Positions 8,579 through 40,112 of a stretch of 46,323 nt of DNA are shown here, in pieces. The stretch covers positions 1-46,323 of the forward strand of contig CAIJOT010000257.1 of assembly GCA_903822335.1 (NCBI GenBank), in the 5' to 3' direction. How positions within the stretch are numbered: position 1 is the first letter of the stretch; the number at the start of each line of letters is the position of its first letter. The DNA is from an uncultured delta proteobacterium (lineage in GTDB: Bacteria; Desulfobacterota; Syntrophorhabdia; Syntrophorhabdales; Syntrophorhabdaceae). Position numbers and translations under genes: made by a program. The notes under the pieces are model-generated. The model made no database searches and was not told the DNA's origin. It saw only the letters and a list, made by a program, of their open reading frames with translations.

Positions 8579-8795
8579 GAGAAATTATTTCCAGCATTTT
8601 TAAGGTATTATGGGCTTCTTCAATATCAATTTTGCCGATTGCATAGCCAGCATGAACCATAAGGTAATCGCCCAAATTTATTTCTTCTTCAATGAGGGGT
8701 GTATATACCTTGTTTTTTACACCAAAGGCTTCAATTATTGCCCATTTTTCCTGCTCGTTCATTTCAATGACCCTGCCAGGTACACCCAAACACAT
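8568..8795 (-). CDS. hypC: Hydrogenase maturation chaperone HypC
   Basis: A 75-residue HypC/HybG-family chaperone. It begins MCLGVPGRVIEM, with the essential Cys2 exposed after removal of Met, and continues with the small OB-fold and GDYLMVHAGYAIGKIDIEEA, a family signature. The frame is open 11 codons further upstream, but the AGGAGGT-like site directly before ATG 8795 and the required MCLG start fix the beginning. It lies 38 nt downstream of hypF and overlaps hypD. Confidence 0.97.
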   Translation of the reverse strand: MCLGVPGRVIEMNEQEKWAIIEAFGVKNKVYTPLIEEEINLGDYLMVHAGYAIGKIDIEEAHNTLKMLEIISHVE

Positions 8796-8833
8796 TTTTT
8801 TCCTACCTCCAGTGTACGATAATAGCATTCACG

Positions 8834-11239: not shown

Positions 11240-11369
11240 TAAATGTATATGAAAACAGGCTTTAAAGCAATGACATCTTGTTTGGTTCATAGGCATCACG
11301 CATTGTGCCAGCATGTCATTGCGAGTTCTGGACACAAGATAATGATAGATTGCCATTTACAGAAAAGAG

Positions 11370-17100: not shown

Positions 17101-17344
17101 GCTTCTTGGCTTCGACATAGCCGATGATGCGGTCCGTGCCATTCCACAGACGAAAATCGGGGTTCCCGGCATCGGTGGGCTTTGGAAGAGTAGTGACGCG
17201 CACATGCGCCCGCCCGGTTTCCTTGGCTATAGACGCCAGCATTTCGGCAAGTGTCGGGTAGAAGCTTTCCTCCCTCGCGTCGCCTTGCAGGGCCACTGCG
17301 GAAAGCTCTTTAAGGTACTTGGTGAATACCGGTTTGTCGCTCAT
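14150..17344 (-). CDS. Type IIG / type ISP-like restriction-modification fusion enzyme
   Basis: A single-chain DNA adenine methyltransferase, endonuclease and specificity protein of 1064 residues. Seen: an N-terminal PD-(D/E)xK-like nuclease region (GNPDFRLW then IIGYVEAKKP, about residues 58-82); a helical connector; the N6-adenine methylase core with SAM motif LLDPAAGTMTFV (about 363-374) and catalytic ILGNPPYSG (about 480-488); and a long C-terminal specificity region like Type_ISP_C. There is no helicase domain, so type IIG fits better than full type ISP. The gene is visibly much GC-richer than its surroundings, a sign of horizontal acquisition. It and the HEPN-like gene separate the hyp and hydrogenase loci. 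Confidence 0.85.
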   Translation of the reverse strand: MSDKPVFTKYLKELSAVALQGDAREESFYPTLAEMLASIAKETGRAHVRVTTLPKPTDAGNPDFRLWNGTDRIIGYVEAKKPMEDRLDVIEESEQLRRYRSTFPNLILTNFLEFRLYRNGERVETVLAARPLILNRLHTMPPLEKPDELHALLDRFLGFSLPKAFTAESLAIELAKRTRFLRDVVAQQLEQEKDTPGMLAGFFEAFQTYLIGTLTPEDFADLFAQTITYGLFAARTRAGDGFSRRASFDNIPHTIGVLRDIFRFISLGDLPEQLAWCVDDIAEVLAVADAPGILDRYYHEGKGSDPIVHFYETFLAQYDPTERERRGVYYTPEPVVGYIVRSLHGLLKTDFGKRDGLASDGVTLLDPAAGTMTFVARAAQQAVAEFEAKYGSGGREDFIRRHILKNFYAFELMMAPYAVGHLKMGFFLEELGHRLTDEERIPFYLTNTLDNEELEQSRLPGFSALAEESLLAGTVKKQTPILVILGNPPYSGISSNMGEWITGLIEDYKYVDGKHFGEKKHWLQDDYVKFLRFAQWKIEQAGRGVMGMITNHGYLDNPTFRGMRQSLMRTFDEIYILDLHGNSLKKETCPDGSPDKNVFDIRQGVAIAFFVKRGGERKADAVVRHAELWGPREVKYDWLNAQDLKHTDWAELKPESSSFYFFVPRNEEHTGQYRTFTRITEVFPVNVTGIVTARDRFVLDFDRDALLRRIGQFRDRSLSDEFIRQAYGLKDTRGWKLSQRRRDLAEMENWRDHVVTCLYRPFDTRVLYYHPYMVDWGRPEVMRHMLAGENLALIAPKQHKEEFGAMATQTIGAHKSVAAYDINYYFPLYLYPTADRADLFSHHEPSERRSNLNPTVVSALTQSYGKEPTPEEIFHYVYAVLYAPVYREKYAAFLRMDFPRVPFTADAKLFRELADLGSRLTALHLLTSPELDPPTCRFEGEGDSRIGKGRKAGFRYEPGEQRVYINATQYFAPVREAVWNYQVGGYQVCEKWLKDRQERRLELDDIRTYCRIVTALGRTLAIQTEIDVLYPGIEKNVVAIPGNTSKVDSGSPTIGSTRHRTRRT

Positions 17345-18608: not shown

Positions 18609-18640
18609 CCCTGCAGCCCTGCTGCGGGGTAGTTCATTTT
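18609..18640. repeat. Hairpin with GTAGTTCATTTT tail
   Basis: CCC-GCAGC pairs with GCTGC-GGG across a short loop, followed on the plus strand by GTAGTTCATTTT. Two related elements lie at 32191-32233 and 42926-42955. It overlaps the stop codon of the hydrogenase protease gene (minus strand). Confidence 0.6.
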
Positions 18641-19107
18641 GTTAAACCACAGTCTTCAATAATTACAGTTACAAGTTCAGGGATGGATTTTTCGACTTCA
18701 GGGGTTAAGGTTTCGCTGAAGGTTGTGTTGTCTTTGATTGAGATTGCGAAAATGTCTATTGTTTCAGGCATTGTGTATCCTAATGTTTTCCCCAATTCGA
18801 TTGCTGTTCGTACATCAAGGAAATGGGGACCGCATGGGTACGAGGAGGTATCTCCTAAATCTTCTACACTTAACCTATAAATCTCACCAGGATTGCTTTC
18901 ATCTGTCTTAATAGAGTCTACTATAATGACTCTTTCATATCCTGCCATCAAATCGAGTAACCCGATACCACCCAGGCTTGCTTCAACAACGTCTAAGTTC
19001 GGCAGCCCCTGGCACCTATTTTTAATCTCCCGTGCCACCAGAATGCCCGCACCGTCATCACTGAGGATGGTATTTCCAAGCCCGATGATTAATGTCCGAT
19101 TATCCAT
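18634..19107 (-). CDS. [NiFe]-hydrogenase maturation protease (HycI/HyaD family)
   Basis: This endopeptidase removes the C-terminal extension of the large subunit after nickel insertion. Seen: LIIGLGNTILSDDGAGILVA, the family N-terminal motif with an acidic nickel-sensing residue; VIIVDSIKT with the second acidic ligand; and CGPHFLDV with the histidine ligand. ATG 19107 (MDNRTLIIG) is the right start; the open frame further upstream is encoded by 8-bp repeats and is not conserved. At 157 residues it is full length. It lies directly downstream of its probable substrate, the large subunit, which keeps an uncleaved 27-residue tail. Confidence 0.93.
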   Translation of the reverse strand: MDNRTLIIGLGNTILSDDGAGILVAREIKNRCQGLPNLDVVEASLGGIGLLDLMAGYERVIIVDSIKTDESNPGEIYRLSVEDLGDTSSYPCGPHFLDVRTAIELGKTLGYTMPETIDIFAISIKDNTTFSETLTPEVEKSIPELVTVIIEDCGLTK

Positions 19108-19140
19108 TCTGTTAGTTTGCGTTTTGTCTGAAAGTTTATA

Positions 19141-19216
19141 GGGTTCAAGGGGTCGAGGGGTCAAGTGGTGCTTTTTTATAAAGTTTTTCACTCGAATCCT
19201 TGAATCCTCGAATCCC
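19141..19216. repeat. 8-bp periodic repeats upstream of the protease gene
   Basis: Two tracts: GGGTTCAA-GGGGTCGA-GGGGTCAA (19141-19164) and CGAATCCT-TGAATCCT-CGAATCCC (19193-19216). They fill the spacer between the large-subunit gene and the protease gene. The first tract contains the 18-bp repeat also seen at 18509. Confidence 0.75.
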
Positions 19217-19233
19217 AGAACCCTTACATAAAT

Positions 19234-20697
19234 TTACGCTCCTCTGCTTATGGTCTTAATCACGTTCCCTGTATAGTCATGGATGTTAATAACCAACGGC
19301 ATCTTTCCTGGGAGTGTATGGGTTGCACAGCCAAGACATGGGTCGTATGCACGGAACGCCATCTCTGCCATGTTCAACATGCCTTCTTTTACTTCCCCGC
19401 CCTTGATGAAGGCCTGTGCTGCCTTCTTCACCGAGAGGGAGATAGGAGCGGCATTATGCTGTGTAGCGACAATGAGGTTGACTTTGCTAATCAAACCTCT
19501 GTCGTCAGTCTCGTAATCGTGTATTAAAACTCCCCTGCATGCCTCGACACACCCGATACCTTTGCCGGTGAACTGGAAGTTCATATTCCTTATGTCTTTA
19601 CTCGTGAGCAATGGATCGTTGGCAATTTTTTGCATGTCCTCAGCAGCCTGCAATGCCTCAATTAATCGCGCCCAGTGGTAAGCGAGGGTATGGTGCGCTG
19701 GTTTACCAACGACGGACGCCATGTATTCATATTCTTTTTGTGCCAGAGGTGTAGCCATCCCGTCTGCAACATTGAACCTTGCGAGAGGACCTACACGGTA
19801 GAGGGACGTATCGTCGCCCTCAATAAGCCCTTTCCACCCTAATTTCCTTAAATATGTTAACCGAATATACGTCCATGGCTCAATCCACTCGCCGATATAG
19901 TCTATGTAATCACGGGGGTGGAAGAATGCGACTTCTTTTCCATTAGGGTCTATTACCCTTATCATACCTTCATAGTAGTTTTGCTTGTTATATTCATCCA
20001 CAATCGCCATGTAGTAAGTCTTCAAATTATATGGTTCACCTAAAATTAAATCGAGGTAAGTCTTGTTTCCCAGCACCGCATCTTTAAAAAGCTGGAGCGC
20101 AAATTGTGCGAATTCAACGCATAGATTGGCAGTTTCAATGATGGGTTTTCGCTCTTCTTCCTTTATGCCGCGGGGAACACCACCAGGCAAGCCTCCTTCA
20201 GGGTGGGCTGGTTTACTGGCAATCAGCCTTATGATATCTCTGGTCCTTTTTCTCACATCAATGACCTTTTTTGCGATATCAAGACCTACCTTGTTGATGA
20301 CACCAAGGATGTTTCTCTCTGCCGGATTGGCATCAGGTCCTACTACAAAATCGGGACCGCCAAGGAAAAAGAAGTGGATATAATGGTCCTCAATATAGTT
20401 GGCATTGTATTGAAGCTTCCTCACCAACTTTGCCGTGGGAGTTGGGGCAACGCCGTAAATATGATCGAGTGCCTTTGTAGACGCCATGTTATGAGGAGTT
20501 GGACAGACTCCACATATATTTGGCACTATTCTTGGCATCTCCTCAGCGGGTCTGCCAATACAGAACTTTTCAAACCCTCTCAACTCTGTTACCTGAAAAT
20601 ATGCATCCTCAACATCACCATTGTCATTAAGAAAGATATCTATCTTTCCATGCCCTTCCAATCTTGTTACAGGATTAATTGTTATCTTCTTGCCCAT
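19234..20697 (-). CDS. Group 3 [NiFe]-hydrogenase large (catalytic) subunit, MvhA-like
   Basis: The catalytic subunit carries the Ni-Fe site where H2 is split or formed. Seen: start MGKKITINPVTRLEGHGKI; N-terminal motif PNICGVCPTPH with Cys62 and Cys65; C-terminal motif DPCLGCATH with Cys454 and Cys457. A 27-residue extension after His460 should be cut by the protease encoded downstream. The sequence resembles cytoplasmic group 3 enzymes (Mvh, bidirectional and sulfhydrogenase types). One oddity: the usual Arg just before ICG in the first motif is Asn60. It follows the small-subunit gene by 9 nt. The exact subgroup (3b, 3c or 3d) needs a tree; the MvhD and MvhG-like partners favour 3c. Confidence 0.93.
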   Translation of the reverse strand: MGKKITINPVTRLEGHGKIDIFLNDNGDVEDAYFQVTELRGFEKFCIGRPAEEMPRIVPNICGVCPTPHNMASTKALDHIYGVAPTPTAKLVRKLQYNANYIEDHYIHFFFLGGPDFVVGPDANPAERNILGVINKVGLDIAKKVIDVRKRTRDIIRLIASKPAHPEGGLPGGVPRGIKEEERKPIIETANLCVEFAQFALQLFKDAVLGNKTYLDLILGEPYNLKTYYMAIVDEYNKQNYYEGMIRVIDPNGKEVAFFHPRDYIDYIGEWIEPWTYIRLTYLRKLGWKGLIEGDDTSLYRVGPLARFNVADGMATPLAQKEYEYMASVVGKPAHHTLAYHWARLIEALQAAEDMQKIANDPLLTSKDIRNMNFQFTGKGIGCVEACRGVLIHDYETDDRGLISKVNLIVATQHNAAPISLSVKKAAQAFIKGGEVKEGMLNMAEMAFRAYDPCLGCATHTLPGKMPLVINIHDYTGNVIKTISRGA

Positions 20698-20706
20698 CTT
20701 TGCACC

Positions 20707-21687
20707 TCATGCTTTTTTTGATGCTTCTCGTCTTTTTCTCAAGAGAGAAGATGCAGTGGTAAACCGATAAAAGTAACCTACAGGGTCATCTAATTCGTCC
20801 GCAATTTTTTTCCTTCCATCCTCTGTCTCTGCAGCGATCAAGGATGCAAGGGCTGATAGATATTTTGCACCCATGTCAGCAACGCCCTCCACAGGCCCAA
20901 AGCAACCCCGGCACGGGAGATTGATATTGATACATACCTCTCCGCAACCCCTTCTCGTTGCCGGTCCGAGACATACAACACCCTGTGCAAGGAAACATTT
21001 CTCAGGGTCAGCTTCTATCTCATGGATTCGTTTGATTTCTGTAATCGCTAATCTTTCCGGTTTTGTTTTATTTCTGGCACATACGTCACAGAGTGCTGTA
21101 TCAGGTGCCAATGTTGAACCTTTAGGTGGTAAATCCCCTGCTATCGCTGCCCGGGCAACCTCAAAAATAAGATCCGGTGGTGGTGGACACCCAGGCAGGT
21201 AATAATCCACATCAATTATATTGTTTAATGGGAAAACCTGATTGTAGAACTCAGGAAGCGTTAAGCTATTCCCGTTCTTCATAGTTATGGTTTGTGGCAC
21301 ATTGTGTTCCGGATTGACAACTGTTGGAGCGTCGCCGTAGACCCACTGAAAAATATCTTTTTTCGTTGTAAGGTTGGCCATGCCAGGTGTCCCTCCGAAG
21401 CAGGCGCAGGCACCGAATGCCAGCACGAGCTCCGATTTCTTTCGTAACAGGTGTGCAAGCTCCTCGTGTTCAGAATTCCTCACGGAACCGTTGATAATAC
21501 TCAATGTAATTTCTTTGTCTTTCATTGCCTCAATGTGGTGGTATTTAAAGTCAAGCGCCACAGGCCAGAGGATTATGTCAAAGGCATTGGTTACCTTTAA
21601 AATATCCTCATTCAGGTCAACAACAGCCTCATCACACCCCCCGCATCCGCCAAACCAACATATCGCTACTTTTGGTTTATCTGCCAT
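20707..21687 (-). CDS. Group 3 [NiFe]-hydrogenase small subunit, MvhG-like
   Basis: This subunit carries electrons from the Ni-Fe site through Fe-S clusters. Seen: WFGGCGGCDEAVVDL (residues about 11-25) and AFGACACFGG, YLPGCPPPP for the proximal cluster. Further cysteine sets follow: CDVCARN, CFLAQGVVC, RRGCGEVC and NLPCRGCFGP for medial and distal clusters. There is no Tat signal or membrane anchor, so the enzyme is cytoplasmic. At 326 residues it is normal for an MvhG type. The start overlaps the end of the upstream fusion gene by 11 nt. Confidence 0.93.
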   Translation of the reverse strand: MADKPKVAICWFGGCGGCDEAVVDLNEDILKVTNAFDIILWPVALDFKYHHIEAMKDKEITLSIINGSVRNSEHEELAHLLRKKSELVLAFGACACFGGTPGMANLTTKKDIFQWVYGDAPTVVNPEHNVPQTITMKNGNSLTLPEFYNQVFPLNNIIDVDYYLPGCPPPPDLIFEVARAAIAGDLPPKGSTLAPDTALCDVCARNKTKPERLAITEIKRIHEIEADPEKCFLAQGVVCLGPATRRGCGEVCININLPCRGCFGPVEGVADMGAKYLSALASLIAAETEDGRKKIADELDDPVGYFYRFTTASSLLRKRREASKKA

Positions 21688-23878
21688 GTGTAACCTCCTG
21701 TCTCTTTATTGGTCCGAGACCTTTTAATCTATCCATAAAACCGTTAATGATTCCTTGAATCTTTTCTCCTTGTGGATCAATAGAGGTTACCACTTCCAGC
21801 CTCTCTTTTTCGATTCCAAAAGACTCCAATATTTTATGGATAAGATACATTCTTTTTCTTGCTTCCTGATTCCCATCCTGAAAATGGCAGTCTCCCTCAC
21901 CGCATCCAAGGAGCATGACACCATCACTGCCTTTCTTGAAGGATTCAAGTATGTCCGTTGCATCAACCTTTCCTATACAGACGACAGGCACCATGCTTTT
22001 TATATTTTTAAACGTTCCATTGCCAGCAGCATATCCCCATCCAAATTTACAGGCAAAGCAGACAATACCTGGTGTGTCGGTAATTTTATGTTTTTCCGTT
22101 GCAGAGAGGTCTGGGACAAGCTCTCTTGCACCTGATGGACACGCAGAAACACACATACCGCAGGCTTTACACAACAAGGGGTCTGTGTAAGAAACACGTT
22201 TCACACCTACCTCTCTTCCATCAAAAAGTATAGGCATGTCTGCGAGGTGTGCTGTGCTGTAGTTACATGCTGCTACGCACATGCCGCAACCGCTGCAAAG
22301 GGTTTCATCTACTTTTACAGTGGGAAGTTCAGGCTGGATACCAGTTGCTACACATGCCTTACATGAGATGCATGGTCCGCATTCAAGGCACCTTCTTGCC
22401 TCTTTTATGGCCTCATCGAGGGTGAATCCTATTTCAAAAGGTTCAAAGTTCATTCTCTTATCAGGAGGCGTCCATTTCGGGGCAGGTTCAGGTTTGAAGA
22501 CATCTCTTAGAGGTGGCTTGCTGCCTTCATATGTAACTAACCACCGGGCCGTACTTACACCCCTCAAATATTTATCGATTGAATCTGCAGCCTGCCTTCC
22601 TTCTGCCATGGCGTCTACCATGAATCCAATTCTCCTCACGTCTCCGCCGAGAAATACATCCTTTCTTTTTTGACTCTGAAGGGTCAGGGGGTTTACCGCG
22701 AGCCTCCCGCTTTCGTCAAAAAGTCCTGTGTTCTGTAGCAATGATCTATCCATCATCTGCCCGATGGTGATGAGAAGGACATCCCCCTCTATCTCTATAC
22801 AATCGGAGGTGTCAAATTTGGGATTAAATCCCTTTTCATCAAAAACGCTTGTACACTTGGGGCAGTCTATCTTTTCGAATTTGTCTTTTTTCCCAATGAC
22901 ACTTCTTACACCTCTCGAATAGACAATCCGTATACCTTCCTGGTGGGCACCCTCTATCTCTTCGAGGTCGGCAGGAATGCCATCCTTAGAGGACTTATCC
23001 CATGTCTCAAGGCATACGATAGTTGCTTTTCCGCCCAACCTGGCCGCTGTCCTTGCAGCATCGAAGGCAACATTACCACCACCGACGACAATCACGTTTT
23101 TGTCTTTATAATAATCAGGAGGAATATTGTTTTTTGCCACTTCATCAAGCAAAGTGAGACCATACATAACATTCTCTAATCCATGCCAGTCTACCGGTTT
23201 TATGCCTAAGGTGAGGGCACGGGGATAAGGAGTACCAGTGGCAATAAAGAAGGCTTTAAAACCTTGATCTTTTAACTGTGAGATAGGATCACCACCATTT
23301 ACTTTCACCTTTTTCTTGATTTTAATCCCTCCGAGGCGGATAAGGTTGTCAACAGCAGTATCCAGCACCTTTTCAGGTAAACGGTATTTAGGGATATACC
23401 TGACCGCACCGCCAAGTTTTGGATTGTTGTCAAAAATCGTCACGTCGTACCCCTTCTTGCTCAACTCCCAGGCGCAAAACAATCCGCCAGGTCCGCCGCC
23501 GAGAATAGCCACTGGTCCTTTATCTTTTTTGACATCCAGGGGTTTCTTCTCATTCAGGTACGGTGTATACATATCAGAGAGAAATTGCTTCAAAAGCCTT
23601 CTCTTAACAGAACCACCCTTGTTTTTGTAGTTACATTCCCGTTCGCAGATACCGCAGATATAACCACAGACTGTGAAGAAGGGGTTTCTGTCGTACAGAA
23701 AGTCTCCAATCTGAATCACCCCGTCGCGAGCCTTTTCCGGATCGTTGGGGAGAAGAGAGATCATCACGTTTGATCTTTGAATTGCCTCTTTAATCGGACA
23801 TCTTACCTGGCAGGGGGGTAGAGTCTGCTTGACTGCTGCCTCTGCACTCGCCTGTTCGTCAGCCCTCAGTTGCCACAT
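21677..23878 (-). CDS. Fusion of GltD/NfnB-like flavoprotein, ferredoxin and MvhD
   Basis: A 733-residue electron-transfer hub. Order of parts: an N-terminal Fe-S region (LPPCQVRCPIKEA, then CGYICGICERECNYKNKGG); a FAD site (VAILGGGPGGLFCAWELSKKGY, about 107-128); an NAD(P) site (NVIVVGGGNVAFDAARTAARLGG); CLECGPCISCKAC; two [4Fe-4S] motifs (CSGCGMCVAACNY and CKACGMCVSACPSG); and a C-terminal MvhD/FlpD domain (IVCFACKFGWGYAAGN, MLLGCGEGDCHF). Known: GltD/NfnB- and HdrA-type proteins pass electrons between NAD(P)H, flavin and ferredoxin, and MvhD links hydrogenase to HdrA. Here both are one chain. The start has a perfect AAAGGAGGT site and a consensus promoter lies upstream. Confidence 0.9.
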   Translation of the reverse strand: MWQLRADEQASAEAAVKQTLPPCQVRCPIKEAIQRSNVMISLLPNDPEKARDGVIQIGDFLYDRNPFFTVCGYICGICERECNYKNKGGSVKRRLLKQFLSDMYTPYLNEKKPLDVKKDKGPVAILGGGPGGLFCAWELSKKGYDVTIFDNNPKLGGAVRYIPKYRLPEKVLDTAVDNLIRLGGIKIKKKVKVNGGDPISQLKDQGFKAFFIATGTPYPRALTLGIKPVDWHGLENVMYGLTLLDEVAKNNIPPDYYKDKNVIVVGGGNVAFDAARTAARLGGKATIVCLETWDKSSKDGIPADLEEIEGAHQEGIRIVYSRGVRSVIGKKDKFEKIDCPKCTSVFDEKGFNPKFDTSDCIEIEGDVLLITIGQMMDRSLLQNTGLFDESGRLAVNPLTLQSQKRKDVFLGGDVRRIGFMVDAMAEGRQAADSIDKYLRGVSTARWLVTYEGSKPPLRDVFKPEPAPKWTPPDKRMNFEPFEIGFTLDEAIKEARRCLECGPCISCKACVATGIQPELPTVKVDETLCSGCGMCVAACNYSTAHLADMPILFDGREVGVKRVSYTDPLLCKACGMCVSACPSGARELVPDLSATEKHKITDTPGIVCFACKFGWGYAAGNGTFKNIKSMVPVVCIGKVDATDILESFKKGSDGVMLLGCGEGDCHFQDGNQEARKRMYLIHKILESFGIEKERLEVVTSIDPQGEKIQGIINGFMDRLKGLGPIKRQEVTHGR

Positions 23879-24071: not shown

Positions 24072-24908
24072 TTAAATTTCGGATGGATATTCCCTGAGTT
24101 GTGCCAGAGAAAAAACAGGGCCGTCTTTACACACATACATGCTTCCAATATTGCAACGTCCACAGAGCCCAATGCCGCATTTCATCCGTTTTTCCAGTGT
24201 AGTAATTATACGGTCATCTTTAAAATTTAATCGAGCCAACCCTTGCAGGACATATTTAATCATAATAGGGGGGCCACACGTGATGGCGATTGTATTTTCA
24301 GGGGATGGCGCTACTTCGTTGAGAACAGTAGGAACAAAACCTACACGCTTATCCCACCCTGGGAATTCTGTATCCACAGTAAGAATCAACTCCACATCAC
24401 TATGCGATTCCCACTCTTTCAGGTCATCTTTATAGCAAAGATCAATGGGAGTCCTTGCACCGTATATGATAGTGATATCTCCATAATCAGGACGATTATC
24501 TAACATGTAGAGAATAAGTGTTCTTAGGGGGGCCAATCCAATACCTCCCCCGATAAAAAGGATTTTTTTCCCTTTCATTTCTTCGTAGGGAAACCAGTTT
24601 CCCAGTGGTGCTCTTACGCCAATCTGATCTCCAACAGAGAGTTCATGGATAGCTTTTGTGACTTCCCCGACCTTCATTACACTGAACTGGAGATACTCCA
24701 TTCGGGTTGGTGGGGAATTGATCACGAAGGTGGCTTCTCCCACCCCAAAAACAGAGAGTTGGCCTACCTGTCCAGGCTGAAAGGAAAAGTTTTTCATTGT
24801 TTCCTGGTCGTTAAATATGACTTGATAAGATTTGATAGTTGGTGTCTCATCTATTATCCTGGTAACGGTAGCAATGTCAGGCAGATAAGGATTCTTAATG
24901 TTTGTCAT
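24072..24908 (-). CDS. FAD/NAD(P)-binding electron-transfer subunit (HydG / FlxA-like)
   Basis: A 278-residue ferredoxin-NADP+ reductase-family protein like sulfhydrogenase gamma, anaerobic sulfite reductase B and FlxA. Seen: a FAD-binding barrel with FQPGQVGQLSVFGVGEATF, an NAD-binding region with ILFIGGGIGLAPLRTLI and AITCGPPIMIKYVL, and a C-terminal [2Fe-2S] loop MKCGIGLCGRCNIG...YVC. It would be the NAD(P)H entry or exit of the complex. Its start overlaps the preceding gene by 14 nt; 193 nt with a promoter separate it from the fusion gene. Confidence 0.9.
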   Translation of the reverse strand: MTNIKNPYLPDIATVTRIIDETPTIKSYQVIFNDQETMKNFSFQPGQVGQLSVFGVGEATFVINSPPTRMEYLQFSVMKVGEVTKAIHELSVGDQIGVRAPLGNWFPYEEMKGKKILFIGGGIGLAPLRTLILYMLDNRPDYGDITIIYGARTPIDLCYKDDLKEWESHSDVELILTVDTEFPGWDKRVGFVPTVLNEVAPSPENTIAITCGPPIMIKYVLQGLARLNFKDDRIITTLEKRMKCGIGLCGRCNIGSMYVCKDGPVFSLAQLREYPSEI

Positions 24909-25962
24909 CTACGCTCTCCCGCATATTGTCTTTAAGAGAGGCCACAACGTTACTGATGCTGATGGATACCGGACAGTACCTGATACATCGTCCACAACCA
25001 GAGCAGGCTATAACACCATTATACTTTTCAGGATAATAGAGGAACTTGTGTCCTACCCTGTTTTTCAGCCTGCCATATTTAGCAGGCCTCGGATTGTGGC
25101 CGCTTGCCTCGAGGGTAAAATGATGGAACATACATGCATCCCAGGTGCGAATCCGTTCACCGGTATTTGCTGTTTGCTCATCTGTGATATTGAAACAATA
25201 ACATGTGGGACAGAGATATGTACAAGCCCCGCAACTGATACATCTATTCCCTTCCTGTTCCCAGAATGTATCCTCATGAAAACGGGGAAGAGGTTTTTTA
25301 CCAGGTTCGTCGTCGGAGAAAGGCTTTTCTACCATAGTGTAACAAGCCTTCCGGATATTCTCAGCCTCATCAATATATGAACTCCCATCCTCGAAAAGAG
25401 GCTCCCTGAGAAGAGCTTCTCCCTTCTCTGTGGACGCTTCTAAGAAATAACCTTTTTCTAATTCAGTCATAAGGATATCAGAGCCTGCTTTATCGGCAGG
25501 TCCACCTCCAACTGATGTGCAGAAACATCCAACGTACGGTACAGGACATGAAAGCGTGATAATCGTTGTCTTTTCTCGCCGTCCCCGGTAATAGGGATCA
25601 GCTATATCGGTTTCAATATAGACACTGTCAATGATCATAAATCCTTTGGCATCACAGGGCCGTGCTCCAAAAATGATTGTGGGTGGATATTCCAAATTTT
25701 CCTTTAACTCAATTGATGTTTTTTGTGGGTTGTCAGGTTCTTTTTTGAAATTGAATGAAAAAAGCTGTTCACACTGGGAAAAGATAATTGTTTTTGGTGA
25801 ACTATTCGCAGGCCGGTCAAAACACAGGTTTTTTTCTGGATTAAAAAGCTGGAACAAAACAACATCATCTTCAAGGCAAGGAACAAAAAGCTGGTGTTTT
25901 TCACTGAGAACTTTTAACCAATCTTTCATCTTTTCTTTCGGAAGATAAGCTGTCGTTGCCAT
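24895..25962 (-). CDS. 4Fe-4S electron-transfer subunit (HydB / FlxB-like)
   Basis: A 355-residue protein of the sulfhydrogenase beta / anaerobic sulfite reductase A type. Seen: PTIIFGARPCDAKGFMIID, the cysteine-rich CPVPYVGCFCTSVGG segment, and two [4Fe-4S] motifs in the C-terminal half (CISCGACTYLCPTCYC and CSGCGRCIRYCPVSI). It would carry electrons between the flavin subunit (24072-24908) and the rest. Start and stop overlap neighbours on both sides (1 nt upstream, 14 nt downstream), so the three genes are translated as a unit. Confidence 0.9.
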   Translation of the reverse strand: MATTAYLPKEKMKDWLKVLSEKHQLFVPCLEDDVVLFQLFNPEKNLCFDRPANSSPKTIIFSQCEQLFSFNFKKEPDNPQKTSIELKENLEYPPTIIFGARPCDAKGFMIIDSVYIETDIADPYYRGRREKTTIITLSCPVPYVGCFCTSVGGGPADKAGSDILMTELEKGYFLEASTEKGEALLREPLFEDGSSYIDEAENIRKACYTMVEKPFSDDEPGKKPLPRFHEDTFWEQEGNRCISCGACTYLCPTCYCFNITDEQTANTGERIRTWDACMFHHFTLEASGHNPRPAKYGRLKNRVGHKFLYYPEKYNGVIACSGCGRCIRYCPVSISISNVVASLKDNMRESVDDKH

Positions 25963-26912
25963 CAGGGTTTCTGCTCCTCAGTGTTTTCTCCCTTTAAACT
26001 GAATACCAGTAATGGGGACTTATCCTCAGGATTGATACCAGGTATATAGCCATATCTGTTCTTCATTCCGAGATTAATCATCTTTTTCAATTTGGACACA
26101 GGGATTCCCATAGGGCATGCACGATCACATTCCCCACATTCAATACATCTTCCTGTTAAATGGAGGGAGTGAATCATGTGGAACATCAGTTTTTCACCGG
26201 GGGTAAGTTTTTGGCTCATCAGATGGGGGTCACGGCTTTCAACGATACACTTATCACGGCAGATACACATGGGACATGCATTTCGGCAGGCATAACAACG
26301 AATACAGCGGTCAAATTCTTTTTCCCAGTATGCCAGCCGTTCGGCTATAGACTTCTTTTCAAATTCACGGACTTCTTCATCAACACTTTCCGGCGGTTTG
26401 TCCGTTTTCACAGGCTCTCCAACCAGATGGTCATATACAAGAGGTGTAGGGTACTGACAGGTTTTGCATTTATCGGGGTAGAGATCAGATAAGAGCAGTT
26501 TCTTTTGACCTTCTGAAGTCCTGATAAGAATGCTACCATTCTCAAATGTTACCTCTTTCACAGGTCGGTAATTGATTGCATGCAAAACCTTGTTCACATC
26601 TATCACACCGGTGCAGGGTATCCCGATAATAACCACATTTTCCCTGTTTATCAGTTCCTCCTGCATATACTGGACAATTGCCTTGCTGTCACATCCCTTC
26701 ACAACAACGGCTGCTTTTTTATTGAGAGAGGGCAGGTAAGTGGCAAGATTATGCACACAGAGTGGGTTCCATATTAACTGGTCAATATGTTCAGGGGTAG
26801 TGATGAAGTGTGGTATTGCATGTAATTGATCAAACCCCTGCCGGTAGCCTATTACAACATCTACCTCGGGTAGTACTTTGCTGACGATTTCTTTTAGTTT
26901 TTCGGAACCCAA
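25962..26912 (-). CDS. FrhB-like / FlxC-like iron-sulfur subunit
   Basis: A 316-residue protein. The N-terminal half resembles F420 hydrogenase/dehydrogenase beta (FrhB) proteins, with AAVVVKGCDSKAIVQYMQEE and NVVIIGIPCTGVID followed by CKTCQYPTP. The C-terminal half holds two ferredoxin motifs (CIRCYACRNACPMCICRDKC and CIECGECDRACPMGI). Such proteins move electrons between flavin and Fe-S partners. The start is TTG with AGGAGG seven bases before it. It is the first gene of the three-gene FrhB-HydB-HydG unit. A TTGACA at 27066-27061 lies upstream but without a convincing -10 box. Confidence 0.85.
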   Translation of the reverse strand: MGSEKLKEIVSKVLPEVDVVIGYRQGFDQLHAIPHFITTPEHIDQLIWNPLCVHNLATYLPSLNKKAAVVVKGCDSKAIVQYMQEELINRENVVIIGIPCTGVIDVNKVLHAINYRPVKEVTFENGSILIRTSEGQKKLLLSDLYPDKCKTCQYPTPLVYDHLVGEPVKTDKPPESVDEEVREFEKKSIAERLAYWEKEFDRCIRCYACRNACPMCICRDKCIVESRDPHLMSQKLTPGEKLMFHMIHSLHLTGRCIECGECDRACPMGIPVSKLKKMINLGMKNRYGYIPGINPEDKSPLLVFSLKGENTEEQKP

Positions 26913-27123: not shown

Positions 27124-27855
27124 TTACTCCGATACTCTTTCTTCACCGCTGTAAATATTCATTTTTTTACCTCGCACAAATCCTATGATGGTGATATTGA
27201 CCTGTCTGGCCAATTCTACAGCTTGATTTGTAGGGGCGCTCAACGAGGCAATCAACGGGATGTTACACTGGATGATTTTTAATAGAATTTCTAACGGAAT
27301 CCTGCCACTTGTGAGGATAATCTTATCTTCAAAACCTATTCCTTTCAGGATTGCCTCACCGATTACCTTATCGAGGGCATTATGCCTGCCGACATCGTCT
27401 TTAAAAATTATTATCTTCTCTCGGTCACATAAAGCGGCACTATGAACACCCCCGGTCTTGTTAAACTCTGATGAACATACCTGAAAGCTATTCATCAATT
27501 CTATAATTTTGCTCCCTTCCATGACAAAACCAGAAGGAATTTTAAGACCCCTGAGAGTAGAGGGATGAAATCTCTTTAGTCGAGATGCTGCGAGAGGATG
27601 TTTTGTTGTAATCTCTACAGATATTTTACTCTTTTTATGGTCTATCAATACATTTTTGACAGAGGATACACCTTTTATGAAACCTGAGGTATAGAGAAAA
27701 CCGGTTGCCAGCTCTTTCAGATCAGTGGGGCTACAAAAAAAAGTTGCCAGCGCCTTTTTATTCACTTCAAGGGTAAACTGGACCTCTTCTGTCACCCAAT
27801 CGGGTATTGCCCTTTTTTCCCCGTTTTCGTAGGAAGTGATCTTTAATCTTTCCAC
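27124..27855 (-). CDS. fdhD: FdhD-like sulfurtransferase homologue lacking the CxxC motif
   Basis: FdhD moves sulfur from a cysteine desulfurase to the molybdenum or tungsten cofactor of formate dehydrogenase. Seen: FFCSPTDLKELATGFL, TGGVHSAAL, DDVGRHNALDKVIG, LTSGRIPLEILLKI and LIASLSAPTNQAVELA, all family blocks. The mobile-loop CxxC usually found before the GGVH block is missing: that region reads RFHPSTLRGLKIPSGF. No formate dehydrogenase gene is in the window. The gene lies 22 nt downstream of the HypB-like gene, so it may be read with hypA-hypB. Whether it acts in sulfur transfer is open. Confidence 0.85.
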   Translation of the reverse strand: MERLKITSYENGEKRAIPDWVTEEVQFTLEVNKKALATFFCSPTDLKELATGFLYTSGFIKGVSSVKNVLIDHKKSKISVEITTKHPLAASRLKRFHPSTLRGLKIPSGFVMEGSKIIELMNSFQVCSSEFNKTGGVHSAALCDREKIIIFKDDVGRHNALDKVIGEAILKGIGFEDKIILTSGRIPLEILLKIIQCNIPLIASLSAPTNQAVELARQVNITIIGFVRGKKMNIYSGEERVSE

Positions 27856-27877: not shown

Positions 27878-28606
27878 TCAGGTGAATTGGTTATAGACTA
27901 TTTTTTGTAGTTGTTTTGCAAAGCCGCTTTCCAATATTTTATCCACATCTCCGATTGTATCTTCAAATATTGTATCGAAATCTATTGCACCTAACATGGG
28001 AACCTTGAAATGCTCTATCTCTTTTTCCACAGAAGAAAGTTCTCGAATTCTCATGTTTTCAAGAACACCGACAATGGGTATACCGAGTTCCTTGAGCATT
28101 TTTACTTCTTTTTTCATGACCTCTGTGGCAACCTTTGACTGGGTAGTTACAATGAGAAATTCCATCCTTTTGATGAGCCTGATGACATCGAGTATAGCAT
28201 CTCCTATGCCAGGAGGCATGTCCATAATGAGAACATCCAAAGAACCCCACAGTGTGATGGCAAGGAGTTCTACTATGGCGTTAGAGACATCATTCCCCCG
28301 GAGTGGTGACGGGTTATTACCAGCAAAATAGATAATTGACATAAACCTGATGCCATAAACTTCTGGCGGAATGATACCCTTTTCCTCTTCTGGATACACC
28401 CCTTCAATGCCAAGTATGATATGTGATGAGGGACCGCTAAAGTCAAGGTCTAACAAGCCCACCTTATAACCCTTTTTTGATAAACATAACGCTGTGATTG
28501 ACGCTATTGAACTTTTACCAATACCCCCTTTTCCGCCTGATACTGCAATGATTCTTTTTACGTTCTCCAACCTTTTATTGATTATACCCAATCTGGGGTC
28601 CATCAT
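27878..28606 (-). CDS. hypB: ATPase-type HypB (Mrp/MinD family) nickel-insertion protein
   Basis: A 242-residue P-loop ATPase. Seen: a deviant Walker A with signature lysine, SGGKGGIGKSS (about 24-34), VGLLDLDFSGPSSHIILG, PSPLRGNDVSNAIVELL and a Walker B-like LIMDMPPGIGD. It lacks the GTPase features of ordinary HypB and the CPxC of Mrp scaffolds. From memory it resembles the ATPase-type HypB of Thermococcus, including the opening DPR...RLE-VKRII. The gene overlaps hypA by 4 nt, and no GTPase HypB is in the window. HypA and HypB deliver nickel to the hydrogenase large subunit. Confidence 0.8.
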   Translation of the reverse strand: MMDPRLGIINKRLENVKRIIAVSGGKGGIGKSSIASITALCLSKKGYKVGLLDLDFSGPSSHIILGIEGVYPEEEKGIIPPEVYGIRFMSIIYFAGNNPSPLRGNDVSNAIVELLAITLWGSLDVLIMDMPPGIGDAILDVIRLIKRMEFLIVTTQSKVATEVMKKEVKMLKELGIPIVGVLENMRIRELSSVEKEIEHFKVPMLGAIDFDTIFEDTIGDVDKILESGFAKQLQKIVYNQFT

Positions 28607-29016
28607 GTTTCCCCTTCAATACTGTCTATCCACACACCACGTCCCTTTATAATGTCAAAGTCAGGGCTTTTACACGATGGGCATCGCATGTAAATGTGGG
28701 CAACTTCAGGAATGAAATGGATAGCTTCGGTCTCATCGTCCTGCAGCCTGTTTAGGGTTTCACTGAAGCTCCACTCAGTGCCACAGACCTTACATTTCAA
28801 TACGCTTTTGTCTGTCTCAACTATTATGTTTTCAATATCCATTCCAAGTGCGTATGATTTAAGGACGTTCTCAAGGGCGAACCTGAATATTCCCAGGTCT
28901 ATCTGTTGTAATTCACCCACTTTGACCTGGATTCGGGAGATATTTTTAAGTTTGTTGTTTTTGATCTCATCAACCGCAGTCACTATAACTGACTCTGCTA
29001 AAGCCCATTCATGCAT
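28603..29016 (-). CDS. hypA: Hydrogenase nickel-insertion protein HypA, archaeal-like long form
   Basis: A 137-residue HypA. Seen: MHEWALAES at the start, with the nickel-binding His2; VKVGELQQIDLGIFRFALENV; and a zinc domain made of CKVCG and CPSCKS. The two CxxC pairs are about 40 residues apart, longer than in most bacterial HypA (around 115 residues). The insert ends in the segment IHFIPEVAHIYMRCPSC, which is like archaeal HypA, as is the end VVKGRGV-like IIKGRGVWID. It is the upstream partner of the ATPase-type HypB with a 4-nt overlap. Confidence 0.92.
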   Translation of the reverse strand: MHEWALAESVIVTAVDEIKNNKLKNISRIQVKVGELQQIDLGIFRFALENVLKSYALGMDIENIIVETDKSVLKCKVCGTEWSFSETLNRLQDDETEAIHFIPEVAHIYMRCPSCKSPDFDIIKGRGVWIDSIEGET

Positions 29017-30429: not shown

Positions 30430-31185
30430 TTACTTCTTTTTGAAGAACTCTTCTAACCTATCCTTAAACTGTTTCTTGCCGGCCAGCTCAGAAACATAGA
30501 ATCTTTCTTTGTCGAGGTGCTGGTCAAGCCCAAAATATGATGAATTATTCACGAGTGTTTTAAAGTACTTGATGGGTTCCATTGGTAAAGCCTTAAGGTT
30601 TTTTATAATTTGGTTGAGCCCTGTCTCTAACCCTTTTTCCTCGAATACGAAGTTCACAAGGCCGAGTTCTTTTGCTTCAGCCATGTGAATGTTACGGGAA
30701 AAGAGATATAGTTCATTAAACTTCTTAGCCCCTATTAACCTTGGTAAGAAAATGCTTCCCCCGCCATCCGGTGTGAGGCCTATCCTTCTATAACCCATAT
30801 TCATTATTGTATTGTTGGTGGCAATGGTTATGTCACACGCAAGTGCAATGCCGATACCTGCACCTACAGTAACACCCTCTAAAACAGCGATAACAATAGC
30901 GCCTGTATAACGTATCATTCTTATGCTTTTATGAAGCGTTTCAGCCATGCCATCAATCAGTGCCCCTGCATCGTCACTATTTTTGAATTCAAGAAGGTCA
31001 CCACCGGCACAGAAAGCCTTTCCAGCACCTCTGATGATGATGACCGAAGCGTTTTTATCCTCAGCCCTTTGCAATGCATTATAGAGCGCCATGAGCAGCT
31101 CGGAGTCCAGGGCATTTTTCTTGTCAGGCCTGTTCAGTGTGATGGTATACACCCCTTCTTTCAATGATTCCAATACTACCTTCAT
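30430..31185 (-). CDS. Enoyl-CoA hydratase/isomerase family protein, PaaG-like
   Basis: A 251-residue crotonase-fold protein. Seen: YTITLNRPDKKNALDSELL, the oxyanion-hole AFCAGGDLLEFKN, GVTVGAGIGIALACD and GLTPDGGGSIFLPRLIG. Classic hydratases have catalytic Glu in the last two blocks; here these positions are Ile and Arg/Gly, while the Asp of TPDGGG is kept, as in PaaG-type isomerases. Hence isomerase is likelier than hydratase. The start at 31185 follows AAGGAGGAAAAC. The frame is open further upstream only through heptamer repeats. Confidence 0.85.
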   Translation of the reverse strand: MKVVLESLKEGVYTITLNRPDKKNALDSELLMALYNALQRAEDKNASVIIIRGAGKAFCAGGDLLEFKNSDDAGALIDGMAETLHKSIRMIRYTGAIVIAVLEGVTVGAGIGIALACDITIATNNTIMNMGYRRIGLTPDGGGSIFLPRLIGAKKFNELYLFSRNIHMAEAKELGLVNFVFEEKGLETGLNQIIKNLKALPMEPIKYFKTLVNNSSYFGLDQHLDKERFYVSELAGKKQFKDRLEEFFKKK

Positions 31186-31210
31186 GTTTTCCTCCTTTAT
31201 CTCAATCAAT

Positions 31211-31257
31211 GTTCCGAGTTCCGGGTTGCGAGTGGGTCTAAACCCGTAACCTGTAAC
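31211..31257. repeat. Degenerate 7-bp tandem repeats
   Basis: Two abutting tracts: GTTCCGA-GTTCCGG-GTTGCGA-GTGGGTC (31211-31238) and TCTAAAC-CCGTAAC-CTGTAAC (31237-31257). They fill the spacer between the isomerase-like gene and the metallo-beta-lactamase gene. Confidence 0.75.
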
Positions 31258-31270
31258 ACGCAACGGTTTG

Positions 31271-35326: not shown

Positions 35327-35608
35327 TTAAGCGGATGGCCCTTTTGGCTTTTTCTCTTCCAGGTAAGATGAATTTTCACCACAATCATGAACTTCGCCTG
35401 CCAGGATGACTTCTTCTTGTATGTGAGGAACCACGATCTCCTCAGGAGTTATCCATACCGCTTTATTGTCACGCCATACAGCTATGGGATAGCCACGCCG
35501 TTTATGCTCAGCCATAACCTCGGCAACGGCTTCCTTCAACGCCATTTCCGCTTTTATCTCAAGAGGCAGGTTTTTTACGCCTTTCTTCTGTCTTGTTTCC
35601 TTTTTCAT
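35327..35608 (-). CDS. Small partner (putative antitoxin) of zeta-like kinase
   Basis: A 93-residue protein with a basic N-terminus, a helical middle (IKAEMALKEAVAEVMAEHKRRGYPIAVW) and a short beta segment DNKAVWITPEEIV. It overlaps the end of the zeta-like kinase gene by 4 nt and lies downstream of it. Such small proteins accompany COG4185-type P-loop kinases and are presumed antitoxins; I recognise no named family with certainty. The association is the main argument. Confidence 0.6.
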   Translation of the reverse strand: MKKETRQKKGVKNLPLEIKAEMALKEAVAEVMAEHKRRGYPIAVWRDNKAVWITPEEIVVPHIQEEVILAGEVHDCGENSSYLEEKKPKGPSA

Positions 35609-36198
35609 TTTACCTCCGCCAAAGCCATAATAGTCCTAAGCGTGCTATCATTTATGACCGTCAGTATACCATTTTTCTCATGAGCGATGATACGAGGTTC
35701 ATCGGTAGAATTGTCAAACATTATCAAGGAATCGAGGAGTGGCCGATATACATGGAAAAGATTGTGCAAACCCTTCTCGAATCTCCTTCGCACTGATTCT
35801 GCCGGTACATCATGTCCTCCCATTCTTACACGGTCGGCTATTCTCCGCAGCGCAAGGTCAACATCGTGCACCCAGAGAAAGAAAAGGTGAATCTGATAAC
35901 CTTTGTTCTTCATATCTTTCAAAAGTCCGATGTAGGTTTTTCCAGCCAGTGTTGTCTCAAAGGCAAAATCCTGGCCTTTGTTCGCAAAATCCCGAATCTG
36001 ATCAAGCATGATCTTTCCAGCTTTTATTGCAAGACTGTCTGGAGAAAAAGGCGAAAGGCCGGAGGCAATGAGATCGGTATTCACAAAATTGAGGCAGTCG
36101 GTATAATAGGGCAAGAATTTCCGGACAAAGGTTGTCTTGCCGGAACCGTTCGCTCCGGCAATGATATAGAGGTTTGGGTTATTCATCGTTGTCGTCAC
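35605..36198 (-). CDS. Zeta-toxin-like P-loop kinase (COG4185)
   Basis: A 197-residue protein with Walker A AGANGSGKTT (residues 14-23), an FVNTDLIASGL block, FAFETTLAGKTYIGLL and RRIADRVRMGGHDVPAESVRRRF. This pattern matches zeta-toxin-like ATPases; zeta toxins phosphorylate UDP-N-acetylglucosamine and so block cell-wall synthesis. Whether this branch is toxic is unproven. It overlaps its small partner by 4 nt and sits at the edge of a restriction-modification cluster. Confidence 0.8.
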   Translation of the reverse strand: MTTTMNNPNLYIIAGANGSGKTTFVRKFLPYYTDCLNFVNTDLIASGLSPFSPDSLAIKAGKIMLDQIRDFANKGQDFAFETTLAGKTYIGLLKDMKNKGYQIHLFFLWVHDVDLALRRIADRVRMGGHDVPAESVRRRFEKGLHNLFHVYRPLLDSLIMFDNSTDEPRIIAHEKNGILTVINDSTLRTIMALAEVK

Positions 36199-37336: not shown

Positions 37337-38686
37337 TTACCCATTGTTCCCCTCGAATGCCTCGCGCAGGACCGCCTGCATGAGTTCTTCCGCCTGGGTT
37401 TTGCGCTCGGTCACCTGTTTTTCCAGTTCACCAACCATGGCAAGGAGGCTGTCAACACGCTCGACAATGGCCGCCTTTTCGGCGAGAGAGGGAAGTGGAA
37501 ATAAGAGCGCTTTTAACATGCCAAGATTGATAACATCCATAAATCCACCATGAGCCATTGATTTTATCGAATTAATCACGAGCGGTGATTTGAATAACAG
37601 ACTAATGTACATTCTATTTATGCTCGGATATAAAGATATCTTTATTAATCGAGGATTTATTATTCCACTTTTGATATTATCTGGCAGAATTAGCAATTTG
37701 CCGATAGTACCAACTAAGCTAATAAGAATATCACCAGGTTTGACTTCGCAAGATTTTAATTCTTTAAATTTCTTTTCATCAATATAATAATGACCAACAT
37801 TTGGATCATTTGCAATCACTTGTTCCTGACCATAGATTTTGTAACAACCGTCGATAACATAACTATCTTTCTTTAGCGATGAACCAAAAGGCCCGGCTTT
37901 TAAGGAATTATCTTTCAGCGCTTTAATGTCATCAAATCTGCACCACGCCCAGCCCTTGGGAAGTTCAAACGGTATTTCTTCCGGTTTTATCGGTGCAAGG
38001 GGCTTTTCTTTCTTTATTTTTCCCTCGGCGATGAGTTTCTGTTTCTCTGCCTTGATCTTTGCCAGCAAAACCGAGGCGTCCGTGTTGGGGTCGCCTTTAC
38101 GGACAGGGTTTTTTATGCGCCAGTCGGCTGTGAGCTTGCCTTCAATGGCCTCCTGTAGGATGGCTTGGCGCAGGCGGGAGAGGAGGTCTGACTGATCCAT
38201 AAATTCTGATAACAATTCAATGTTAAAACCGTTTTCTCTATTAAAAAGATCAATAAAAGTAATTTGTTTCTCAATTGGAGGAACCGGTATCTCAATTCTT
38301 GCGATGTCTTTTATGGCAAGAGACACGTTAGCCGCACCTTTCATGAGCGGCACGATCTTTCTGTCCTTATAGAATTGAAGATATCGGTGTAAGAAAGCTG
38401 CACTTACCTTCTTGGAATCATGAGGAATAACAGCAGCGAGAATTGTGCCAAGCGCGAATTCACCTTTTTGATAATGGACATAATTCAAGGATTTCTTGCC
38501 GTGCCCCGCCGATGAAACAAGGGGAATGCAAACCGCTTCAGCATCAAATTGAAAAGTCTTTGCTGTTTTACGTTCTGCCCCTGTAGTTACCAGCGGATAT
38601 TGGCCGGGTTCAGCGCTTGCTATACCGGTTTCGCCTTTAATTATCTGGCATAAATCGCCAAGTTTTGCTTTTTCATATTTATCCAT
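37337..38686 (-). CDS. hsdS: Type I restriction enzyme specificity subunit HsdS
   Basis: A 449-residue specificity subunit that sets the DNA target for HsdM and HsdR. Seen: two target-recognition domains, the first from about 5-145 and the second from about 240-400 (beginning LPKGWAWCRFDDI), each followed by a conserved helical spacer (LLSRLRQAILQEAIEGKLT and the C-terminal VERVDSLLAMVGELEKQV...AVLREAFEGN). The start overlaps the hsdM end by 8 nt. Both half-sites appear intact. Confidence 0.92.
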   Translation of the reverse strand: MDKYEKAKLGDLCQIIKGETGIASAEPGQYPLVTTGAERKTAKTFQFDAEAVCIPLVSSAGHGKKSLNYVHYQKGEFALGTILAAVIPHDSKKVSAAFLHRYLQFYKDRKIVPLMKGAANVSLAIKDIARIEIPVPPIEKQITFIDLFNRENGFNIELLSEFMDQSDLLSRLRQAILQEAIEGKLTADWRIKNPVRKGDPNTDASVLLAKIKAEKQKLIAEGKIKKEKPLAPIKPEEIPFELPKGWAWCRFDDIKALKDNSLKAGPFGSSLKKDSYVIDGCYKIYGQEQVIANDPNVGHYYIDEKKFKELKSCEVKPGDILISLVGTIGKLLILPDNIKSGIINPRLIKISLYPSINRMYISLLFKSPLVINSIKSMAHGGFMDVINLGMLKALLFPLPSLAEKAAIVERVDSLLAMVGELEKQVTERKTQAEELMQAVLREAFEGNNG

Positions 38687-40112
38687 TAAGGAATTCCTTC
38701 TTCAACCTTTCGAGTAGCTCATCACTCTTTTTGAAAGAATCATGGAGCATGACCAGCAGTTCCGCGCTTGAGTGCTGGTGCTCAACCTTAGCAACGTGTG
38801 GATTTTTGATATCGAGACTGTAGCCGTTCCCGGCAATGGTCTCTATAGATACCCGCCACGCCTGCTCGTTTTCTTCACGATTGCTCCACCACTTTTTCAG
38901 ACCCTCAAACTCGGATATCTGTATCGGCTTGGTCTTGGAATAGGATTTGACCCCTTCCGGTAATTTATGTTCATAATACCAGATTTCCTTGGTAGGTTGT
39001 CCTTTGTTAAAGAAAAGCAGGTTGGTTGCCACACTCGCGTAAGGCTGGAACACTGAATTAGGGAGGCGAACGATTGTATGCAGGTTGCAGCTTTCCAGAA
39101 AATGCTGACGAATACGCTGTTTTACGCCTTCGCCAGTAAGTGAACCATCGGGCAGAACAATAGCCGCACGTCCACCGTCTTTAAGGTAGCGGATCATGAG
39201 AACAAGGAACAAATCAGCGCTTTCCGTTGTGCGATAGTTCTGCGGGAAATTTGTCTCCGCACCATCGGTCACAGATGCGCCGAACGGGGGATTTGCGAGG
39301 ATTACGTCCACCCGGTCTTTCTGACTGATGGAGGTATATTCACGATTCAGACTGTCAGTATAATCAACATTGGGGACTTCGATATCATGAAGAATCAGGT
39401 TTGTTACTGCCAGCATGAAGGGGAGCGGTTTTAATTCCATCCCGTGAATGGTCTTTTCCAGCATTTTAAGGTCATCAACATTTTTAACATCCTGTTTGCG
39501 TATGTTCTCAATTGCGCTGGTCAGAAAGCCACCTGTTCCACAGGCCGGGTCGAGCACTTTTTCTCCCAGCCGGGGATTGACTATGCCGGTCATAAATTCA
39601 GTAATGGCACGCGGTGTATAAAATTCTCCGTAGTTTCCAGCACTTTGAAGGTCACGTAAAATAGTTTCATAAATATCACCGAAAACATGACGGTCTTCCG
39701 AGGAGTTAAAATCAATGGTATTGAGCTGATTGAGCACCTGCCGGATGATGGTGCCGTTTTTCATATAGTTGTTGGTACCTTCAAAAATCTCACGGATAAT
39801 CAGTGCTCGCTTGTTTCCAGTACTCACATCCAGACCCTTCAATTCAGGGAATAGTGTTTTCTCAATAAAGCCACTGAGTTCGTCGCCGGTTATTCCTTCA
39901 TCGTTGGCTGCCCAGTTACGCCATTGCAGATTAACCGGGATTAGTGAAACATATCTATCATCGAGAAGCTCCAGTTCCTTATCTTTATCGTCGAGAATTT
40001 TCAATGTGATCAGCCACCCAAGTTGTTCGATTCGCTGGGCATCCCCTGAAACACCTGGGTCCTTACGCATGATGTTTTGCAGTGTCTTGATAATGTTTCC
40101 AAAATGCTTCAT
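38679..40112 (-). CDS. hsdM: Type I restriction-modification methyltransferase HsdM
   Basis: A 477-residue N6-adenine methyltransferase. Seen: an N-terminal helical HsdM_N domain, the YGEFYTPRAITEFM block, SAM motif VLDPACGTGGFLTSAIENI and catalytic motif VILANPPFGASV. With HsdS it methylates the recognition site; with HsdR it makes the restriction complex. Its ATG directly abuts the hsdR stop, and hsdS overlaps its end, giving the order R-M-S in one transcription unit. Confidence 0.95.
   Translation of the reverse strand: MKHFGNIIKTLQNIMRKDPGVSGDAQRIEQLGWLITLKILDDKDKELELLDDRYVSLIPVNLQWRNWAANDEGITGDELSGFIEKTLFPELKGLDVSTGNKRALIIREIFEGTNNYMKNGTIIRQVLNQLNTIDFNSSEDRHVFGDIYETILRDLQSAGNYGEFYTPRAITEFMTGIVNPRLGEKVLDPACGTGGFLTSAIENIRKQDVKNVDDLKMLEKTIHGMELKPLPFMLAVTNLILHDIEVPNVDYTDSLNREYTSISQKDRVDVILANPPFGASVTDGAETNFPQNYRTTESADLFLVLMIRYLKDGGRAAIVLPDGSLTGEGVKQRIRQHFLESCNLHTIVRLPNSVFQPYASVATNLLFFNKGQPTKEIWYYEHKLPEGVKSYSKTKPIQISEFEGLKKWWSNREENEQAWRVSIETIAGNGYSLDIKNPHVAKVEHQHSSAELLVMLHDSFKKSDELLERLKKEFLNG

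Follow-up and report, generated by a model that had tools for sequence, protein, structure and literature searches.

A long-form HypA and ATPase-type HypB pair beside a [NiFe] hydrogenase in a bacterial genome that also carries a GTPase-type HypAB

The closest described relative of the gene pair considered here is the HypA-HypBAT (mmHypB) system of Thermococcus kodakarensis, represented by the structures PDB 3vx3, 5aun-5auq and 3a43 (Sasaki 2013; Watanabe 2015, as covered in PMC9164220 and PMC12134894). In three recent reviews the ATPase HypB appears only through T. kodakarensis, or under the wordings 'some archaeal' and 'some organisms', and a literature search on mmHypB and bacterial ATPase HypB found no report in bacteria. 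A second described system is the isr operon of Acetobacterium wieringae, which brings together IsrA, HypA, HypB and an Isr-type ferredoxin; its host genome lacks a [NiFe] hydrogenase (PMC10134865).

The window, which is the whole stretch of 46,323 nucleotides that was analysed, carries what its sequence identifies as a bacterial instance of the already known ATPase-type HypAB. Both genes are intact and overlap by 4 bases. The pair and the hydrogenase and maturation genes that follow it are:

28603-29016, minus strand: long-form HypA, 137 aa, a predicted nickel metallochaperone with a PRK03824 match and an MHEW N terminus
27878-28606, minus strand: predicted ATPase-type HypB (HypBAT/mmHypB), 242 aa, a Mrp/MinD-family P-loop ATPase with no Cys
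27124-27855, minus strand: FdhD, formate dehydrogenase sulfurtransferase (TIGR00129, 194.3 bits, cut-off 140.9), starting 22 bases after hypB
25962-26912, minus strand: 4Fe-4S / FrhB-FdhB_C-like electron transfer protein (Pfam Fer4 models and PF04432)
24895-25962, minus strand: HydB/AsrA-like iron-sulfur subunit (NF040833, 161.7 bits, below the equivalog cut-off)
24072-24908, minus strand: HydG/AsrB-like FAD/NAD subunit (PRK08345, 249 bits, below cut-off)
21677-23878, minus strand: GltD-like FAD oxidoreductase that also has Fe-S domains (relatives at the equivalent position score 1327-1351 bits)
20707-21687, minus strand: [NiFe] hydrogenase small subunit, VhuG-like (NF045875, 204 bits)
19234-20697, minus strand: [NiFe] hydrogenase large subunit, VhuA-like (NF041785, 409.5 bits), with DPCLGCATH followed by a C-terminal tail
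18634-19191, minus strand: hydrogenase maturation protease of the HycI/HyaD family (TIGR00072, 108 bits, cut-off 47.45)
8834-11356, minus strand: HypF (TIGR00143, 793 bits)
8568-8828, minus strand: HypC, an ORF between hypF and hypD read from the sequence, its start MCLGVPGRV lying inside the ORF
7484-8578, minus strand: HypD (TIGR00075, 446 bits)
5669-6682, minus strand: HypE (TIGR02124, 417 bits)

From hypA to the protease the genes form a single-strand run in which neighbours overlap or lie no more than about 210 bases apart. Six genes separate hypB from the large subunit, in agreement with the earlier note, which had seen an [NiFe] hydrogenase a few genes downstream of the pair. The large subunit, presumed to be the nickel recipient, is encoded on the same strand as the pair and is the only protein that a PF00374 search detected in the genome (98% complete). 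The GltD-like oxidoreductase gene is found beside hydS-hydL in Syntrophorhabdus relatives too. Beyond the protease come about 7 kb with a gene for restriction-modification and another for a transport protein, and then, still on this strand, hypF, hypC, hypD and hypE. This gap looks like an insertion, since hypF lies within about 2.5 kb of the protease in the same-family relative G201. A scan of the operon for terminators and promoters gave results at chance level.

FdhD counts here simply as a neighbour of the pair. Its gene follows hypB in the window, and in G201 (L137, 8839-14241) genes for a formate channel and an NAD-formate dehydrogenase lie between hypB and the hydrogenase, an arrangement hinting at a linked formate/H2 module. 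On the other side of the pair, an SSF transporter separates hypA from a nearby upstream gene for an enoyl-CoA hydratase-like protein (30430-31263); a hydratase-like gene is also just upstream of hypA in both sister-family genomes (L140, 9095; L141, 9709) and in a Fibrobacterota MAG (L047, 299-1068). Elsewhere in the window, the translations indicate, between hycI and hypF, a large gene for a single-chain protein of restriction-methylase type (14150-17344), a type I-like restriction system with specificity, methylase and helicase-like genes (37337-42512), and a zeta-toxin-like P-loop protein (35327-36198; IAGANGSGKTTFVRKFLP) whose gene overlaps a small 93-aa gene, possibly forming a toxin-antitoxin pair.

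The window HypA scores 168.8 bits with the NCBIfam model PRK03824, above the curated cut-off of 125, and only 58.7 bits with the classical model TIGR00100, below its cut-off of 88.1. Among solved structures the best match is the HypA of T. kodakarensis (104 bits), against 25 bits for classical HypA. The protein has MHEW at the N terminus, Zn-type CxxC motifs at 75-78 and 112-115, and an IHFIPEV segment with His100; the classical HypA of the same genome, on contig C274, has its CxxC motifs, as read from the sequence, at 73-76 and 89-92. No variation occurs at MHEW, at His100 or at any of the four Zn Cys in the 75 pairs compared. The nickel site of the T. kodakarensis complex is reported to be made up of the N-terminal motif of HypA together with the His of IHFIPEV.

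The adjoining ATPase matches PF10609 at 184 bits, and the GTPase HypB model TIGR00073 is not among its listed matches. Its best solved relative is the T. kodakarensis HypB (3vx3, also 5aun-5auq; 248.5 bits), followed by a Mrp-type Fe-S carrier at 115.7 bits. Relatives of known structure this near leave no doubt about the fold. The P-loop GKGGxGKS, D53, D55 and DxPPG are at or near invariance across the 75 pairs. Thus, the two identities first read from the letters, a HypA with long CxxC spacing and IHFIPEV and a Mrp/MinD ATPase akin to Thermococcus HypB rather than a GTPase, are both borne out.

The pair was followed in a sample made of the 80 loci nearest to the window HypA together with relatives of the host. 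An ATPase adjoins HypA in 71 of the 78 loci with enough sequence downstream of HypA (43/48 archaeal and 28/30 bacterial), and such a recurrence argues that the adjacency is not due to chance. The gap between the two ORFs is shorter than 10 nt in 63 loci. Bacterial pairs occur in about a dozen phyla, some of them represented by single MAGs that may be mis-binned: Bacillota, Thermodesulfobacteriota, Chloroflexota, Caldifarciminota, Stahliibacteriota, Bipolaricaulota, Zixiibacteriota, KSB1, Omnitrophota, Dictyoglomota and others. In the window's own phylum the long HypA is rare (6/247 genomes). The order hypA-hypBatp-hypF-hypD-hypE is found in two genomes of the window's order and in Pelotomaculum and relatives (P. 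propionicicum strain MGP and two more), so that a named strain, MGP, carries the ATPase pair inside its hyp operon. The label 'archaeal-type' partly reflects where the system was first studied, as many bacteria have the pair. The breadth of this bacterial use, and the coexistence with a GTPase pair in another context described below, go beyond what the consulted literature says.

As to origin, the window pair falls together with those of Syntrophorhabdus and Desulfotomaculaceae in the trees (SH-aLRT 98% in the HypB tree and 99% in the joint tree). Kinship and synteny place the host in Syntrophorhabdales, probably in Syntrophorhabdaceae. A gain of the pair by the host lineage from an archaeon would fit with the characterised member being archaeal and with the tree rooted on Mrp, in which Thermoplasmata branch low and the bacterial rows mostly higher, the root being long and the basal branches poorly resolved. 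We nevertheless consider such a gain unlikely, with the window pair inside a bacterial clade of 16 rows (98-99% SH-aLRT). Neither a recent archaeal transfer nor an ancient direction is demonstrated, because a single clade for all bacteria (p-AU 0.153) and one for the Syntrophorhabdales rows (p 0.336) are both not rejected; the data lend no support to a recent acquisition from archaea. Of the two histories that the earlier note had offered, an alternative nickel-insertion route in bacteria stands, and a transfer from archaea finds no backing in the bacterial clade and the p-AU value.

A GTPase HypB and a hydrogenase were searched for in 44 genomes, most of them incomplete MAGs, which gave 42 distinct genomes with long HypA: G159 and G262, with identical places, were counted once, and G152, having no long HypA, was left out. 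Among these 42, a hydrogenase was above cut-off in 39, and no GTPase HypB was above cut-off in 39, the window genome being one of the three exceptions. With only 3/42 long-HypA genomes having a GTPase HypB, the ATPase HypB would usually replace it, which is a trend of distribution and no defining molecular trait. The contrast is also seen within the phylum set, where the hydrogenase genomes without a GTPase HypB amount to 5/6 of those with long HypA and 28/173 of the others (Fisher one-sided p 0.0009, relatedness not corrected). In P. propionicicum the TIGR00073 matches were rejected as weak (best 56 bits, below cut-off), the best one reading as a CobW/HypB/UreG-type paralogue in another context. 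The ATPase pair would account for the many bacteria that bear a hydrogenase yet no recognisable GTPase HypB. The annotation of ATPase hypB genes as Mrp or MinD leads to their being missed.

The 28 phylum genomes of the second group (e.g. G044, G080, G139 and G236), which are near-complete, have strong [NiFe] hydrogenase matches and neither a GTPase HypB nor a long HypA above cut-off. A similar lack of HypA/HypB was described for some Clostridium (PMC9431212).

In the window genome (G000), a complete classical HypA and GTPase HypB are encoded on contig C274 (L007, 15786-19976), this HypB being the TIGR00073 match of the genome. Their neighbours are two Isr-type ferredoxins, which resemble the N-terminal part of IsrA and bear a Cys-rich motif, and an Fe-S protein of RDH-like type (TIGR02486). 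The locus, on a contig that has no full-length isrA, is a candidate for a nickel-dependent reductase. A GTPase HypAB in an Isr-type context was found in all three genomes with both systems (C274, L142 and L144): in G271 an Isr-type ferredoxin, and in G249 (L144) a full-length IsrA-like protein of 915 aa, are beside it.

The presence of this second pair raises the possibility that the hydrogenase depends on the GTPase HypAB of C274, the window pair being an acquisition that is redundant or in decay. In the sister genome G152, of the same family, a related hydrogenase lies near a hyp cluster holding classical HypAB; therefore a hydrogenase of this type can do without the ATPase pair, and a GTPase pair can serve it. 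Against this, both window genes are intact and keep all ligand residues, the same-family genomes G097 and G201 have a hydrogenase and the ATPase pair with no GTPase HypB, and the GTPase pair sits in an Isr-type context wherever the two systems coexist. By its looks, which are not proof, C274 HypAB is not the hydrogenase's pair, because its neighbours are Isr-type and RDH-like rather than hydrogenase genes. We therefore regard redundancy or decay as quite unlikely. The earlier note had also looked to a classical hypAB pair elsewhere in the genome and used for this hydrogenase; the pair exists, but its context is Isr-type.

Since the GTPase HypAB goes with Isr genes and not with a hydrogenase in all three genomes, two nickel-insertion systems with separate clients are suggested, although three of three is not proof. 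The GTPase HypAB of the window genome probably serves a different enzyme. In a wider formulation, to which we give about even chances, the [NiFe] hydrogenase would receive its nickel from an ATP-driven HypA-HypBAT, and an Isr-type oxidoreductase from a GTP-driven HypAB, the ATP form being the standard one for hydrogenases in a broad and largely unrecognised set of anaerobic bacteria. The genomes with both systems offer a chance to test if the NTPase partner sets which enzyme gets nickel.

The identity of the ATPase was also weighed against the Fe-S scaffolds of the same superfamily. The HypB ATPases adjoining long HypA form one clade, and 12 Mrp sampled from genomes of the same kinds stand apart from it (99% SH-aLRT), so that in the phylogeny the window ATPase falls with HypB ATPases and not, as had been contemplated, with Mrp/ApbC. 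Fragments aside, bit scores within the HypB set are 218-366, against 98-130 to the Mrp of the same genomes. The CxxC Fe-S motif is present in 12/12 Mrp, whereas the window protein has no Cys; in the HypB-ATPase rows CxxC occurs in no archaeal and in four bacterial proteins, near residue 57-69 in the N-terminal half. The window genome has its own Mrp on contig C17 (331 bits to PF10609). The view of the ATPase as a plain Fe-S cluster scaffold of the Mrp/ApbC/NBP35 kind, beside hypA by chance, is scarcely credible and is ruled out by the tree, scores and motif, even with the shared PF10609 and matches to Mrp models, which stay far under the equivalog cut-offs (MrpORP 150 of 450; ApbC 128 of 348 bits), and the recurrent adjacency to long HypA speaks against it as well.

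We therefore return to the reading of the pair as the nickel-insertion module of the hydrogenase just downstream, which we hold to be highly probable, with a mechanism very likely analogous to that of T. kodakarensis. What we observe directly is the family to which each protein belongs, the adjacency of the genes, the conservation of the ligand residues, the pattern of substitution across genomes and the context; ATP use, nickel transfer and the specific client of the window pair we infer. The ATPase HypB dimer would bind ATP and dock HypA, bringing His100 to the N-terminal MHE motif and creating a tight nickel site. Hydrolysis of ATP would then release the nickel-loaded HypA, which would deliver the metal to a large subunit that HypCDEF have previously supplied with Fe(CN)2CO, and the maturation protease would subsequently trim the large-subunit tail. 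The ATPase would be the only HypB in most bacteria with the pair, and would act here beside a GTPase HypAB.

Compared with known systems, the window ATPase shares the P-loop fold (PF10609) and the Walker motifs with the Mrp/ApbC/NBP35 Fe-S carriers, which differ from it by the CxxC for Fe-S binding, a separate clade and no hypA linkage. The classical bacterial HypA-HypB (TIGR00100 and TIGR00073) have in common with the window pair the nickel-delivery role, the MHE of HypA and the Zn CxxC pairs; their HypB belongs to another NTPase subfamily (GTPase), and their HypA has its CxxC motifs closer together and no IHFIPEV segment bearing His100. The C274 locus resembles the A. wieringae isr operon (PMC10134865) in HypA, HypB and the Isr-type ferredoxin, but has an RDH-like gene (TIGR02486) instead of an adjacent full-length isrA. 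Unlike the T. kodakarensis system, the window pair is known from sequence, occurs in a bacterial host and in a bacterial clade, and has a GTPase HypAB in the same genome. With T. kodakarensis HypA-HypBAT it shares the family, a HypB without CxxC, the MHEW and His ligand positions of HypA, the adjacency of the two genes and their use beside a [NiFe] hydrogenase.
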